DNA from: Phycisphaerales bacterium
GTDB lineage: Bacteria; Planctomycetota; Phycisphaerae; Phycisphaerales; SM1A02
NCBI GenBank assembly: GCA_028823105.1
Contig: JAPKCC010000015.1
Location: 1 to 41,576, forward strand
Length of the DNA: 41,576 nt
Direction of reading: 5' to 3'
Positions 1,211-7,040 of the stretch are shown in pieces. Every line of letters begins with the position of its first letter. The stretch's first letter is position 1. Both the position numbers and the translations under genes were made by a program. The notes below the pieces were generated by a model. It was given only the letters and a program-made list of their open reading frames with translations, was not told the origin of the DNA and did not search any database.

Positions 1211-2269
1211 ATGAGCACACCTATTTCCCCCCAACGCATCCTCGTGACCGGCGGGGCCGGATACATCGGCTCGCACGCCTGCCTCAGACTGGTTGAAACC
1301 GGCCACACGGTGGTTGGCCTGGATGACTTCTCGCGCGGCCACCCCGGAGCCTTCCGTGCGATCGCTGCCGCCGCGGAAGATCTCCCCGGATCCTTCACCT
1401 CGATCGAGGCGTCCATTGGAGATCGCCGCACCTGCGCCGCCGCCCTCCGGGAACATCAGATCGACCTCGTGATGCACTTCGCGGCCCTGGCCTACGTTGG
1501 AGAGTCCGTCGAACAGCCATTGCGGTACTACGACAACAACACCGGAGGCGCGATCTCGCTGCTTGAAGCGATGATGGACGCGGGCGTCGGCAAGTTCGTC
1601 TTCTCGAGCACCTGCGCGACCTACGGCGAACCCGGCGCCGAGCGAATTCCCATCGCGGAAGACTGCCCCCAGGCACCCATCAACCCCTACGGCAACTCCA
1701 AATTCATGGTGGAACAGGTCCTGTTCGATCACGCGGAAGCCTGCCGCCTCGCCGAACGGCCGTTCGCCTTCGCGGCGCTTCGCTACTTCAACGTCGCCGG
1801 GAGTGATCCGGAGACGAGGATCGGCGAGGACCACCGCCCGGAAACACATCTGATTCCGATCTGTCTTGAGGTCGCCGCCGGCCGTCGGGACCAACTCATG
1901 ATTTTCGGTGACGACTACGACACCGAGGACGGGACGTGCATCCGCGACTACGTGCACGTCTGTGATCTCATCGATGCTCACATCGCGGTGATGAATCGGC
2001 TCGCCCCGGGCGATACCCACACCCTCAACGTGGGCCTCGGACACGGATGGTCGGTTCGTCAAGTGCTTGAAGCCTGCCGAGCCGTCACTGGGAAAACGAT
2101 TCCGGAATCGATGAGCCCGCGTCGAGCAGGTGATCCGCCGAAGCTGTTCGCGAATTCATCGATGATTCGGAATGACTTTGGATGGACGCCGCGGTTCACC
2201 GATCTCGAAGCGACGGTCGCCACCGCCTGGGCCTGGATGCAGGCCAACCCTTCGGGCTATCCGGATTGA
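1211..2269 (+). CDS. galE: UDP-glucose 4-epimerase
   Basis: This enzyme interconverts UDP-glucose and UDP-galactose for envelope polysaccharide and galactose metabolism. It is a cytoplasmic short-chain dehydrogenase/reductase of 352 residues, the usual GalE length. An N-terminal GGAGYIGS dinucleotide loop (residues 14-21) binds NAD. The Ser/Thr of SSTCATYG (132-139) and the YGNSK pair (Tyr160, Lys164) supply the active site. NVAG and the RDYVHV segment are also typical of the family. The frame stays open upstream to an ATG at 1142, but that would add 23 residues unlike GalE. The ATG at 1211 places the Rossmann loop at the normal distance. The gene converges on the PagL-like gene with a 24-base gap. 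Confidence 0.95.
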   Translation: MSTPISPQRILVTGGAGYIGSHACLRLVETGHTVVGLDDFSRGHPGAFRAIAAAAEDLPGSFTSIEASIGDRRTCAAALREHQIDLVMHFAALAYVGESVEQPLRYYDNNTGGAISLLEAMMDAGVGKFVFSSTCATYGEPGAERIPIAEDCPQAPINPYGNSKFMVEQVLFDHAEACRLAERPFAFAALRYFNVAGSDPETRIGEDHRPETHLIPICLEVAAGRRDQLMIFGDDYDTEDGTCIRDYVHVCDLIDAHIAVMNRLAPGDTHTLNVGLGHGWSVRQVLEACRAVTGKTIPESMSPRRAGDPPKLFANSSMIRNDFGWTPRFTDLEATVATAWAWMQANPSGYPD

Positions 2270-2293
2270 TCCAAAGCCGAGATGCGGAAGCCC

Positions 2294-2962
2294 TCAGAAT
2301 GGAATGCTGATCAGGGCCGTCACGGCGGCGGTATCAATTCCGAGGTTGGTGGTGGTCGTCCTCGCGTTCGAGAGGTGGTACCAACCGAGTCCGACCAGAA
2401 GCCTCGCATCATGATCGAGTTCGATCGAGAATCCCACGCCCGCCTGCGGGGTGAAATTAAGCCTGCTCCCGGTTGGGCGGACCGGCTCCGTCGCATACGC
2501 CAGCCCGGCTCCGATCTCGCCGTACATCGTCCATCGTTGGTACCGAAGAAAATGCCAGCGCATCATGATGGTGAGCCCGAACAGGCCCGCGTCAGAGCCG
2601 GCATCCTGGCCGACCCAACCGAGGTCGGCTTCGACGCCGATGCTGAAGTCATCGATGGCGAACCACTCGAATCCCCCAGCGAGATAGGCCATTTTTTCGT
2701 CGGCCAGGTCACTGGCGATCATTCCCCCGATCATCCATCGCCGACTTCCGGCGGCTCCGTAGACGACGGGAGAAACCGCCGCAGTTGAACTGACGGAAGC
2801 ATCGGAGTTCGATTGATCGCCCACCGCGGCGTCACCATCCTGCATCAGAATCGCAAGAACATCGGTCTCCGGAGAGGCCGCGTGCAGCATGCCGGGTTCG
2901 AGGGCCATCGCAATCACGCCGAGGAGGACGGTGGCATGGCGGAGGGCGAGTCTTGCGATCAT
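2294..2962 (-). CDS. PagL-like lipid A 3-O-deacylase / acyloxyacyl hydrolase family outer-membrane protein
   Basis: This is a 222-residue protein with a signal peptide (about residues 1-28, cleavage near LHAAS) and a C-terminal beta-rich region of alternating hydrophobic strands ending in Phe, as in outer-membrane barrels. The segment WYHLSNA (His196, Ser198) matches the PagL His-x-Ser-Asn-Ala active site. In characterised PagL a Glu follows the Ser by 12 residues. Here that position holds Asp210 (in NLGID). PagL removes the 3-O acyl chain of lipid A in the outer membrane. The ATG at 2962 has ACGGAG six bases upstream and starts exactly at the signal peptide, so it is preferred over the open frame extending to 3175. 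A strong minus-strand terminator lies 160 bases upstream of this start, so readthrough control is possible. Confidence 0.75.
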   Translation of the reverse strand: MIARLALRHATVLLGVIAMALEPGMLHAASPETDVLAILMQDGDAAVGDQSNSDASVSSTAAVSPVVYGAAGSRRWMIGGMIASDLADEKMAYLAGGFEWFAIDDFSIGVEADLGWVGQDAGSDAGLFGLTIMMRWHFLRYQRWTMYGEIGAGLAYATEPVRPTGSRLNFTPQAGVGFSIELDHDARLLVGLGWYHLSNARTTTTNLGIDTAAVTALISIPF

Positions 2963-3123
2963 GAGAACTCCGTGGATGGATTCCGACTCGGATCGTCGGA
3001 CGACCCTGTGAACGGTACGAGATCGATCACCGAGATGTCGTCGCTTGGCCGCCACTCGACCATTGAAGATTTGGCCGCAATGCTCTGGAATGACCGGCCG
3101 GCGGATCCGGAGGTCGGTCATCC

Positions 3124-3162
3124 AAAAAAAATCCGCCCGGTCGCTCCGACACGACCGAACGG
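3124..3162 (-). terminator. Strong intrinsic terminator, minus strand
   Basis: Read on the minus strand, CCGTTCGGTCG pairs with CGACCGGGCGG around an 8-base loop. The stem is 11 bp with two G-U pairs. One base later come eight consecutive T. No protein gene upstream on the minus strand accounts for it, so it ends either an RNA gene or a leader. Confidence 0.8.
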
Positions 3163-3400
3163 GTTCGTCAACCATGTTGCCATGGTCACGAAGAAGATCT
3201 GGATTGGCAGGGCCGATTGGAGCCCTGCATGGCTTGCTCTTGAATCCTCGCCTGACTCCGCGACTTGGGAGTCCATTGAATCCTGATGGCCCCCGATGGC
3301 CCCTAAATCATCGCACATGGCTCCAAACCTCGCCAAAATCGCGGTGCATGCGATTGGGGCGGCGTTTTCTCGGCAGAACGGAGCACGTTCGGCTCTTTTT

Positions 3401-3430
3401 ACCGCATGTTGCCGCATGTTGCCGCATGAT
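3401..3430. repeat. Three tandem 10-bp repeats
   Basis: ACCGCATGTT, GCCGCATGTT and GCCGCATGAT lie head to tail. The core CCGCATG is identical in all three and the period is one DNA turn, as expected for a cooperative protein-binding site. On the minus strand the repeat would lie within the inferred transcript. Confidence 0.7.
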
Positions 3431-3560
3431 CGCCCAAGCAGGCAATATTTGCCGATGCCTAAAGGCTCGTTCTCGCTTCAAATTACCGGCCTATCCTGTA
3501 CCGTCTGTCGTCGAGCTTCGAATCAGACGGATTTCCGCGTTCGAATGACGACATAAGCAC

Positions 3561-3588
3561 AGTATCGTCACCAGTGGGCATTGGTCAA
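3561..3588 (-). promoter_or_regulatory. Sigma-70-like promoter, minus strand
   Basis: The -35 box TTGACC (3588-3583) matches five of six consensus bases. A 16-base spacer follows, then the -10 box GATACT (3566-3561) with four of six. The predicted start is near 3554. It points toward the terminator at 3124-3162 and the PagL-like gene. Confidence 0.45.
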
Positions 3589-3667
3589 CGCCTCTGCGGC
3601 ACCTTCTCCGAGGAAAATGTAAATCACTGCTACATATGATCTTACGAGCGACCGTGAGCCTTCGGGG

Positions 3668-4102
3668 ATGATCCGAGTCTCCATCGCAGCCATCCTCCGC
3701 CCATCATCGGACCGCGATGACGGAACGCCTTGCGTCCTCGCTGCATGGCGGCCGATCGATGCCATTCGAGGCGGGGTTTGGGAACTTCCTGGCGGGAAGA
3801 TCGATGCTGGCGAATCTGCGGCGGACGCCGCGCAGCGCGAAGTCCATGAAGAACTGCAGATCGACATTGTTCCGCGTGAATCACTTGGTGTCGCGGAGGA
3901 CATCGATGAGAAGCAAACGAGAGAGCGGCATGTGCATGTCGAAGTCGTACTCGCAGACCTCAAGGGTGATGAGCCGAAAGACTCCGATCGCCTCTGGCAG
4001 TGGATTCCAATCGCGCGACTCCATGAGTACGAGTGGCCTCGCGCCAATGGCGAACTGAACCGACTTCTCCAGGCCAGGTTCGGCGTCGAACAGGAATCCT
4101 GA
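3668..4102 (+). CDS. Nudix hydrolase, MutT-like
   Basis: This is a 144-residue cytoplasmic pyrophosphohydrolase. The Nudix box starts at Gly43: G-x5-E49-x7-R57-E58-V-x-E61-E62, the metal-binding helix of the family. The usual Gly in the last part of the box (ELGI) is Gln64 (ELQI), a tolerated variation. WELPGGK just before it is typical of MutT/8-oxo-dGTPase members, so removal of oxidised nucleotides is plausible, but Nudix substrates cannot be read from sequence. The ATG at 3668 is preceded by a G-rich TCGGGG. It lies 110 bases upstream of the molybdoenzyme genes on the same strand. Shared transcription is possible but not evident. Confidence 0.85.
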   Translation: MIRVSIAAILRPSSDRDDGTPCVLAAWRPIDAIRGGVWELPGGKIDAGESAADAAQREVHEELQIDIVPRESLGVAEDIDEKQTRERHVHVEVVLADLKGDEPKDSDRLWQWIPIARLHEYEWPRANGELNRLLQARFGVEQES

Positions 4103-4212
4103 TTCGATCAACGATGAATCGCTCGAATGAACGGGCGATCAGTGTTACCCTCAAGTCGATACGTCTCCCCCGTTTTCTCGACCACCCCCAGCAACATCTG
4201 GATCTCGAGCAC

Positions 4213-4905
4213 ATGCCAGAAGACTCGTCTCCACCTTCCGGGCCATCTGGATCATCGCCAAAGAGCGACGTCTCTCGTCGCCTCTTCCTGCAGACGATCG
4301 GAATCTCCGCCGCCACGGTTGCTGCCGAGCGACAAGCGGCGAACGCTGATGCCGTCATGAAGCCCGGAGGGGCGACCATCATCGGCCCGATGCCAGCGAG
4401 GACCTCGCTTCAGGTCAACGGTCGCCAACTCGACTTCATCGCCGAGCCGGCCACGACCCTTCTCGAGGCACTCCGGGAGCGATGCGACATCACGGGCCCC
4501 AAGGAAGTGTGCGACCGAGCCGCATGCGGAGGATGCACCGTGCTGCTCGATGAACGACCGGTGGCAAGCTGCATGATGCTCGCACTGGATGCGACCGACC
4601 GGAAGATCACGACGGTGGAAGGCATCGGCACGATCGACGCTCCCGATCCGCTTCAAGAGGCGATGGCGGAGTTCGACGCCATGCAGTGCGGCTTCTGCAC
4701 GCCGGGAGTGGTCACCTCGGCCAAGGCGCTCCTGGTACGAAACCCTCGACCGACCCTCCATGAAATTCGTGCGGCGTTATCCGGGAATCTCTGCCGTTGC
4801 GGCGCCTACCCGAACATCTTCAACGCGGTGCTGGTGGCCAGCGGACAGGATCCGGTCGCCGAGCCGACCGATCGTGGCCGCACCACTTCGGGAGGACACG
4901 CATGA
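4213..4905 (+). CDS. paoA: Aldehyde/xanthine oxidoreductase 2Fe-2S subunit with Tat signal (PaoA-like)
   Basis: This is the iron-sulfur electron-transfer subunit of a xanthine-dehydrogenase-family molybdoenzyme. Residues 21-46 form a twin-arginine signal (SRRLFLQ, then a weakly hydrophobic stretch ending near AANA). The complex is therefore exported folded to the periplasm, as for E. coli PaoABC. A plant-type 2Fe-2S domain has Cys100, Cys105, Cys108 and Cys120. The helical second cluster domain has Cys159, Cys162, Cys194 and Cys196 (CGFC and CRC). The ATG at 4213 puts the Arg pair about 20 residues in. The frame extends upstream to 4033, but that part overlaps the Nudix gene and is not protein-like. 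The stop overlaps the next start as ATGA. The gene symbol is by analogy. Confidence 0.88.
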   Translation: MPEDSSPPSGPSGSSPKSDVSRRLFLQTIGISAATVAAERQAANADAVMKPGGATIIGPMPARTSLQVNGRQLDFIAEPATTLLEALRERCDITGPKEVCDRAACGGCTVLLDERPVASCMMLALDATDRKITTVEGIGTIDAPDPLQEAMAEFDAMQCGFCTPGVVTSAKALLVRNPRPTLHEIRAALSGNLCRCGAYPNIFNAVLVASGQDPVAEPTDRGRTTSGGHA

Positions 4906-7040
4906 GCCACCAACCACGAGCTCTTCGAGCGATCAATGCAGGCCAGTCGGTCGCGGATCACGCCACCCGACTTGAAGGCCTCGAGAAGGCGACCGGCGCC
5001 GCTCGCTTCGGACGAGACCAAATCAAGAAGGACATGCTCTGGGTGCGGTTGATTCGCTGCCCTTGGGGACGCGCCTCGCTCGATTCACTCGATCGCGATG
5101 CCGCGCTCGCCACCCCGGGCGTTGTCGAGGTCGTGGTATCCGGAGACGCCGGCGAATACCACGGTGACTCCATCGGATACCTCGTGGCCCGGAACAGACG
5201 CGGGCTGGAGCGCGGCCTCCAGGCGCTGGATGCGAAGTGGACCCGTCTGGACTGCAAGACCGGAATCCTTGACGATCAAGAGGCTCGAGCACCGATCGGG
5301 GATCCGTCCAAAGAGGCTGCCAAGGCGATCGACGCTGCCGATTTTTCTTTCGAAGCCAGTTACTCCACACCGGTCCAGACGCACTCCTCGCTCGAGACGC
5401 ACGGTCTGATGATCGAACCGGATGGTGAGAATTCGATCGTGCACGCATCCACCCAGGGCACCTTCGTCGTCGCCGACCAGATCGGTCGCTTCCTTGGCAA
5501 ACGACGATCGAAAATCGTCATCAATTGCGAGCACGTCGGCGGCGGTTTCGGATCCAAGTTCCAGATCGGCAAGGAGGGTGCGGCCGGTGGACTTGCCGCC
5601 AAAACTTCCGGCGAGGCCGTCTACTCCTTCTGTGATCGAGAAGAGGAGCATCTGGATACCGGGAATCGTCCTTCGCTTCTTTGCAAGGTCCGCCTTGGCC
5701 ACGATGCCGACGGAACCATTCGCGGCGCTCGGTTCGAGACGTTCGGCGGAACCGGAGTCTCACGCCGCGGCGGTGGCGCCCGAGTTCCCAGCGGACGATT
5801 TGAATTCGGAACCCTTGATGCCCGAAACCACCGGGATGTTCAGTTCAATGCCGGAGGCCCCCGCGCGATGCGGGCCCCCGGATGCCCACAGGGCGCCTTC
5901 GTCGAAGAGCTCCTGATCGACGAGATCGCTCATCGGTGCGGACTGGACCCACTCGACCTTCGACGTCGCCTCGACGACTCCGAACGCCGCCATCAGATGT
6001 ACGACGTCGCCGCGGATCTCATCGGCTGGGAGAATCGATCCGATACCGGGTCGCAGTCCGGCACCATGCGAACCGGATACGGCATCGGAACCTGCGACTG
6101 GGGCAAGGGGCGAGCGCCCGCCAAGATCGAGGTCGTCGTCCACCCTGACGGACACCTCGAAGTGAGGACGGGTACGCAGGACATCGGAACCGGACAACGC
6201 ACGGCAATGGGCGCCCTCGTGGCCGCACGCATCGGCGTACCCCTCGCGAACATCTCGGTGGCGATCGGCAATTCGAGGCTCCCCGCCGGCCCGGCCTCGG
6301 GCGGCTCGGTCTGCACGCCGAGTACGGCACCCGCCGCGATGGCCGCCGCGGACCTCGCACGCGAACGCATCCTGTCGGGCGTCGCAGAACGTGAGAAGCT
6401 CGACGCCACGCAACTGACCATCGACGACGGCGTGATCATGGAGGGCGGACGAAAGGTCGTTCGCTGGGAAGACGCCTGCCGCAGGCTTTCCGAACCCGTC
6501 TCGGTGACCGGAGAGTTCGACGGACGGGCGAGCGCGTACTGGGGCGAAGGATCTTCCGAAGGCGTTCAGGCGGCTCGCGTCGAAGTCGACTGCGAGACCG
6601 GTCAAGTCTTCGTCCGCGACGTGATCGCCATTCAGTCCTGCGGGCTCCCCCTGGTCCGCAAGACTGCCGAGAGCCAGATCATGGGCGGTGTCATTCAAGG
6701 GACGAGTTACGCCCTGTTCGAAGAGCAGGTTCTCGATCCGGGCACGGGGGCGGTGTTGAACGCGAACCTCGAGAGCTACAAGATCCTGGGATCCGAGGAC
6801 TGCCCTCGGATCGTCCCGGTGCTTTGGCGAGATGATCAGACCGGCGTCCGGGCGCTCGGAGAACCCCCGGTGATCCCCACTGCGGCGGCGATCGCGAATG
6901 CGGTCTTCAATGCGATCGGACGTCCGGTACGGGATCTCCCACTTCGACCGGACCGAGTACTCGCGGCGCTCGCCGAACCGATGGCGGAGCGTGTGGTGGC
7001 CGTCGCACCCAGAACCACCGACCGGGAGACTCGGGCATGA
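4902..7040 (+). CDS. paoC: Aldehyde/xanthine oxidoreductase molybdenum-cofactor subunit (PaoC-like)
   Basis: This is the 712-residue catalytic subunit that binds the molybdopterin cofactor and hydroxylates or oxidises aldehydes or N-heterocycles. Family motifs are the GGGFGSKF segment near residue 209, MRAPGCPQGAF near 324 and a run of Gly/Ser-rich cofactor loops (SGGSVCTP). The general base is the Glu of GEPPVIP (Glu654). Length matches PaoC-type subunits (about 730), not the fused eukaryotic enzymes. The start is the ATG at 4902 with GGAGG ten bases upstream, overlapping the previous stop by ATGA. The open frame upstream to 4797 is antisense-like overlap. There is no Tat signal, which fits export by hitch-hiking on the 2Fe-2S subunit. 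The substrate is unknown. Confidence 0.9.
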   Translation: MSHQPRALRAINAGQSVADHATRLEGLEKATGAARFGRDQIKKDMLWVRLIRCPWGRASLDSLDRDAALATPGVVEVVVSGDAGEYHGDSIGYLVARNRRGLERGLQALDAKWTRLDCKTGILDDQEARAPIGDPSKEAAKAIDAADFSFEASYSTPVQTHSSLETHGLMIEPDGENSIVHASTQGTFVVADQIGRFLGKRRSKIVINCEHVGGGFGSKFQIGKEGAAGGLAAKTSGEAVYSFCDREEEHLDTGNRPSLLCKVRLGHDADGTIRGARFETFGGTGVSRRGGGARVPSGRFEFGTLDARNHRDVQFNAGGPRAMRAPGCPQGAFVEELLIDEIAHRCGLDPLDLRRRLDDSERRHQMYDVAADLIGWENRSDTGSQSGTMRTGYGIGTCDWGKGRAPAKIEVVVHPDGHLEVRTGTQDIGTGQRTAMGALVAARIGVPLANISVAIGNSRLPAGPASGGSVCTPSTAPAAMAAADLARERILSGVAEREKLDATQLTIDDGVIMEGGRKVVRWEDACRRLSEPVSVTGEFDGRASAYWGEGSSEGVQAARVEVDCETGQVFVRDVIAIQSCGLPLVRKTAESQIMGGVIQGTSYALFEEQVLDPGTGAVLNANLESYKILGSEDCPRIVPVLWRDDQTGVRALGEPPVIPTAAAIANAVFNAIGRPVRDLPLRPDRVLAALAEPMAERVVAVAPRTTDRETRA

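Follow-up and report, generated by a model that had tools for sequence, protein, structure and literature searches.

The window analysed here is a 41,576-nucleotide stretch of DNA from a Phycisphaerales bacterium. Near its start (57-2962) lies an envelope neighbourhood in which an undecaprenyl phosphate translocase-like gene (PF04018) and a GalE-like epimerase gene (PF01370) lie together with a gene for a PagL-like lipid A 3-O-deacylase (pagL; minus strand, 2294..2962; PF09411, E 2e-14). A NUDIX hydrolase gene (PF00293) occupies 3668..4102 of the plus strand and is followed, at 4033-7040, by subunits of the xanthine dehydrogenase/aldehyde oxidase type ([2Fe-2S] and molybdopterin-binding). Between pagL and the NUDIX gene, and divergent from the latter, lies the RNA unit studied here, which occupies the minus strand from 3588 to 3124.

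An earlier note, made from the letters of the window, had placed a minus-strand promoter at 3588-3561, with boxes TTGACC and GATACT separated by a 16-base spacer. Both boxes and the spacer are present as described. The site is the only one of its kind in 2000-5000, which is chance level for the pattern alone (0.8 expected). Relatives give the conserved register of the same site, two bases away: TTGACC (3588-3583), an 18-base spacer and TACTGT (3564-3559), with a predicted start near 3552. The promoter thus spans 3559..3588. At the other end of the unit, the terminator stem and T run of the note were found at 3162-3133, as a minus-strand hairpin (3133..3162) of 11-12 pairs, 12 counting wobbles, followed by eight T (3124..3131). 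By pattern alone the terminator is also at chance level (2 in the region, 2.2 expected), so its weight comes from its conservation.

Open frames exist on both strands of the roughly 430 bases between promoter and terminator. None is a credible gene, in agreement with the note, since among relatives the length of the T run differs and the middle is rich in insertions and deletions. The note had also counted four perfect inverted repeats; such repeats are present as three 7-nt pairs no more than 60 bases apart. At a length of 6 bp, the unit contains five perfect hairpins against a shuffle mean of 1.1 (0 of 300 shuffles reach five), and two of the five are the conserved 3' hairpins described below. 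Folding of the whole unit gave a z of -2.05, with -0.5 for the 5' 350 nt and -3.9 for the last 80 nt. The unit is found in relatives as well, and on the evidence of sequence comparison it is real and conserved as a promoter-terminator unit.

A structured RNA family in one planctomycete order

A DNA similarity search of 60 relatives and the window's own genome recovered the unit in 6 of 61 genomes. These were its own genome and five of the seven relatives of the same genus, with both ends of the unit alike. Similarity within the genus was limited to the promoter-bearing 5' end and the last 80-100 bases, while the middle was variable and differed in length. Models of the 3' domain reached much farther. 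A first covariance model (R1) matched 105 of 181 genomes of the taxonomic family at E 0.01. A covariance search in relatives was a check that the earlier note had named. With model R2 at E 0.001 it found the RNA in 128 of the 181 genomes, in 79 of the 104 good ones and in 40 of 45 genera, in most cases as a single match per genome. No R2 match was obtained in the other 53 genomes, including two of this genus (G005 and G007). In genus g19, characterised by small genomes, the 13 listed genomes (G025, G084-G095) had no match to the RNA and carried two CsrA genes each.

A third model, R3, was trained on an alignment without sequences of this genus (A8, see below). It is not fully independent, because its training loci had been found via R1 and R2. 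In the window's own genome, its sole match is the present copy (3126-3190, E 7.4e-6). At E 1e-4, R3 matched 139 of 400 genomes of the order, 111 from the same family and 28 from four other families, the 28 having been inspected in part, in families other than f3 and f6. Among 294 genomes of the phylum there were five matches at E 0.001, all within the same order. At class level R2 gave 34 matches, of which six (L058, L060, L062, L064, L151 and L152) were judged chance hits or plain terminators because they lack the loop. A pattern scan of named genomes returned 34 stretches, 32 of them in records labelled as planctomycetes or uncultured bacteria; the remaining two (Anaerotruncus and Loigolactobacillus) were taken as chance.

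Locus comparisons were based on 54 oriented loci (53 and the window). Removal of two chance matches (L151 and L152) and one locus from a genus already counted (L159) left 51, mostly one per genus, with three each from this genus and g33 and two from some others. Two near-identical whole units on separate contigs of one genome (L003 and L008, on contigs C4 and C87 of G003) perhaps come from a mixture of strains or a redundant assembly, and not from a duplication.

The conserved 3' domain, matched in the window by both R1 and R2, covers 79 bases of the minus strand (3125..3203). Predicted folds give the family a common layout of hairpin 1, a short linker and a terminator of about 12 pairs with the loop (U)GUCGGAGC. 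Hairpin 1 (minus strand, 3164..3192; UUCG..ACCAUG-GCAA-CAUGGU..CGAA) has 12 pairs, 7 of which show changes on both sides in an alignment of 29 distinct sequences fitted to the covariance model. Its GCAA loop is replaced by GUGA in one species (G002). The terminator loop reads UGUCGGAG in the window (minus strand, 3144..3151) and contains the constant core UCGGAGC, our proposed contact site. All 51 loci have UCGGAGC, with the caveat that the loop was located by the motif UCGGAG and only the last C is independent of that choice; the longer form UGUCGGAGC is present in 41. The motif is missing from none of 70 cut-outs, a constancy that is conditional because members were cut out by UCGGAG itself. 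Two of these members were left out of a later comparison of the set. While the loop is constant, the bases of the terminator stem vary across loci.

Among six close sequences, covariation did not exceed that of shuffles, as 1 of 23 pairs changed on both sides and 170 of 500 shuffles reached that level. In alignment A5, which was fitted to the covariance model and holds 30 loci with 29 distinct sequences, 95.6% of cells are paired, against at most 46.8% in slid versions. Changes on both sides affect 14 of its 23 pairs, in 90 cells, and 0 of 500 shuffles scored as high. Alignment A8 was made with MAFFT from 27 members, none of this genus; its rows were picked visually for the shortness of hairpin 1, and its structure line was written by hand. 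It is 92.9% paired and has changes on both sides at 10 of 20 pairs, again with 0 of 500 shuffles as high. The base pairs therefore covary, as the earlier note had asked of a structured RNA.

The promoter recurs with the 3' domain. Of the 51 loci, 37 have a TTGAC-N15..18-TA...T element upstream of the RNA, compared with 4 of 1565 control windows, and this element is retained across different families of the order. Its commonest form is TTGACC-N18-TACTGT; the strict form was not seen in 14 of the 51 loci. With its own promoter and terminator, and with a conserved secondary structure that shows compensatory changes, the element has, by sequence comparison, the marks of an independent structured small RNA gene, a unit that is usually single-copy in one planctomycete order.

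Among the 37 promoter-bearing loci, the predicted RNA is 80-140 nt long in 30, compared with about 430 nt here. Long predicted RNAs come from three loci of this genus (333-474 nt) and one of genus g50 (367 nt). In genus g50 (L109, with the predicted 367-nt RNA, and L031), as in this genus, a long 5' extension separates the promoter from the 3' domain. In the window the extension occupies 3204..3552 of the minus strand; it is long in this genus and variable. A conserved structure in this long 5' part was considered and dropped, as 2 of 38 predicted pairs (first 137 columns, 4 sequences) changed on both sides, which is too few. Three tandem 10-base repeats, TTACCGCATG / TTGCCGCATG, lie within the variable insert at 3399-3428. 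The RNA of this genus would be the family RNA with about 350 extra 5' bases, varying freely past the first part.

Neighbouring genes and the link to pagL

Of the 51 loci, 27 carry a divergent NUDIX box less than 1 kb upstream of the RNA, compared with 25 of 754 one-kb windows overall. A close NUDIX homologue is missing from G005 and G007, the same-genus genomes that also lack the RNA. For two other genomes without the RNA (G067 and G025) the NUDIX search used a query from another genus and is a weak test. Related envelope genes recur near the RNA elsewhere, with clusters c1 and c2 found at 19 and 14 of 54 loci, respectively.

Downstream, 21 of the 51 loci have a same-strand pagL start no more than 600 bases away. 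In 6 loci pagL lies further on, past a convergent gene that is PfkB-like in the single case tested; 4 have it on the opposite strand, and in 20, where the unit is kept, it is not within the fetched stretch. PF09411 confirmed PagL in the two members tested. At the six loci from other families (L146-L150 and L153) the next gene is convergent in all, and the RNA there faces a large gene of cluster c14, which may encode a carbon starvation (CstA-type) membrane protein.

Within this genus, the gap between terminator and pagL contains a candidate separate pagL promoter (minus strand, 3012..3041), composed of ACGACA (3041-3036), 18 bases and TACCGT (3017-3012). It sits in the best conserved 31-base stretch of the gap (3042-3012), and four species agree at 11 of its 12 hexamer positions, compared with 48 of 162 columns for the whole gap. 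By consensus the element is weak (4/6 and 3/6), it was missed by the pattern scan, and it was not seen in two other aligned species (G004 and G002). At other loci (L108, L135 and L139), however, the -10 box of the RNA is likewise TACCGT. Conservation of this promoter-like element in four species suggests that pagL probably has its own promoter in most of the genus. Genus g48 is arranged differently, with the first in-frame ATG of pagL 19 and 22 bases past the terminator stem in the two loci measured (L144 and L155). This spacing would permit read-through into pagL there, and partial read-through of the small RNA terminator may be the simplest account.

The earlier note had offered two readings of the unit, an attenuated pagL leader with a named antiterminator and an independent small RNA. 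According to the former, the RNA would be a cis-acting leader whose terminator is a regulated attenuator before pagL, with read-through expressing the lipid A deacylase. The same-strand pagL within 600 bases at 21 of 51 loci leaves room for a link between RNA and gene, and at the two g48 loci there is no space for a separate pagL promoter. However, the antiterminator strand GCCGAACG (3393-3386) lies in the variable insert and has no counterpart in six relative rows, three of which are gapped at this position and three partly gapped and different; the proposed pairing with the terminator was rejected on this basis. Nor did a search for other competing strands replace it. In the window, the longest run upstream of the terminator that can pair with its 5' arm is 8, against a shuffled mean of 8.1 (67 of 100 as long). 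Over 37 loci the mean longest run is 6.03 against 6.12 in shuffles, and a competing strand beats 95 of 100 shuffles in 1 of the 37. Mutually exclusive antiterminator pairing was thus found neither in the window nor across these loci, and the position before the regulated gene is not constant. The promoter-like element ahead of pagL in four species, the 30 of 51 loci that keep the unit with pagL outside the fetched stretch, on the opposite strand or past a convergent gene, and the convergent neighbours in all six other-family loci likewise argue against a leader, which we consider unlikely. The independent small RNA of the note has stood up better, backed by conservation, covariation, a conserved promoter and a unit that survives where pagL is outside the fetched stretch or beyond a convergent gene. 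A highly improbable third account is that promoter and terminator are simply a strongly conserved pair around an RNA that is itself functionless. Intrinsic terminators are common and their stems are rich in G+C, and six of the 34 class-level matches, set aside above, were judged plain terminators. A terminator needs neither a fixed loop sequence nor a second covarying hairpin, though, and here the loop stays constant while stem bases change, and the promoter accompanies the element across families of the order.

A further reading is a CsrA-binding RNA. If the RNA bound CsrA, the GGA of the terminator loop would capture the protein and relieve its targets. CsrA was found in 177 of 181 genomes of the family, including all 104 good ones, and a GGA placed in an apical loop fits the CsrA type of site (PMC4005645). 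The same paper gives the high-affinity form as ANGGAX in a hexaloop on a stem, and also describes weaker binding to other GGA settings. The Csr/Rsm decoys CsrB and RsmZ share with the family a GGA in the apical loop. The RNA differs from them in that GGA is not enriched in its long form here and a U replaces the A of ANGGAX. All 51 loci have this U two positions ahead of GGA, at a base within the locating motif, and 4 of 52 members contain A.GGA at any position. The 430-nt RNA contains 9 GGA against 9.1 expected, unlike decoys with many sites, and CsrA is present in the 13 listed g19 genomes without an RNA match. Having neither the A(N)GGA loop nor the many GGA sites of a CsrA/RsmA decoy, the RNA was rejected as one, and a CsrA-binding role appears decidedly unlikely.

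Proposed action through the terminator loop

A search for Hfq, positive in 5 of 14 control genomes, found it in none of the 181 genomes of the family. The lack of Hfq hits, a loop without the A of the CsrA consensus and a GGA that is not enriched in the long RNA together favour a trans-acting RNA that pairs via its terminator loop. We therefore regard an independent, Hfq-less, trans-acting small RNA with the terminator loop as its contact site as the best reading of these sequences, and as a likely one.

In this model, the housekeeping polymerase would transcribe a stand-alone small RNA that ends at the U run, and would not mainly produce a pagL leader. The RNA would act in trans. Its terminator hairpin would both end and protect the transcript, and hairpin 1 may serve as a structural or stabilising domain. 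The UCGGAGC loop would be the recognition element, most likely base-pairing, without Hfq, with targets that carry a CUCCGA-like sequence. The main alternative within the trans-acting reading is a protein partner, as the conserved loop could equally bind a protein.

Candidate pairing sites were sought by exact matches to the 10-base loop complement in eight genomes of the genus. Of the 63 matches, 7 were the RNA itself. The other 56 included eight shared sites, none present in more than three of the eight genomes, and 37 of the 56 were unshared. The reversed pattern gave 32 matches as a control, and because its composition is not equal to that of the complement, we claim no excess of sites. Allowing up to one mismatch, the complement occurs 5 times in the window, against 6.0 expected. 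A pseudoknot between CUUCG and the loop bases CGGAG was also judged by eye, and was dropped because CUUC is missing from several members.

More tentatively, the family may be an order-wide regulatory RNA whose sole constant contact surface is its own terminator loop. Working without Hfq and outside Csr, it might act on many mRNAs, or via an RNA-binding protein or the ribosome, as part of a planctomycete-specific system.

Comparison with known RNAs and significance

In their general features, the members of the family resemble Hfq-independent trans-acting small RNAs, which have their own promoter, a short structured transcript, a terminator hairpin and a short constant unpaired element. In the family, by contrast, it is the loop of the terminator that holds the constant element. 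6S RNA is also a stand-alone RNA, folded as one long hairpin with a bubble, whereas the family has two separate hairpins. A search for 6S RNA (RF00013), positive in 5 of 14 control genomes, gave 0 matches in the window's own genome, and 6S RNA was ruled out.

At the gathering score, Rfam 15 had no match for the window or for the loci of 20 relatives. A relaxed search of two members gave none up to E 1, and that of the window returned two weak snoRNA matches on the plus strand, below their cut-offs. Searches of the literature on planctomycete small and structured RNAs, Phycisphaerales noncoding RNA, transcriptomes and Hfq, with few subscription journals covered, gave no description of this RNA among the matches listed. 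The Rhodopirellula-1 motif is a candidate structured RNA listed for Proteobacteria and Planctomycetes (PMC2864571). It shares the phylum with our family, which was found in one order in the phylum sample. With no Rfam 15 match for any member tested, and with no small-RNA paper on this order among the matches listed, the RNA family appears to be new.

Judged from its sequence and its relatives, the element appears to be a separate RNA gene and not a switch that controls the lipid A gene beside it. Its case shows that a weak-looking promoter-terminator pair can be decided by comparison alone. The covariance model is ready for use in annotation. A usually single-copy RNA whose loop is constant and whose base pairs covary strongly, in a family in which Hfq was not found, offers an entry to RNA regulation in planctomycetes.
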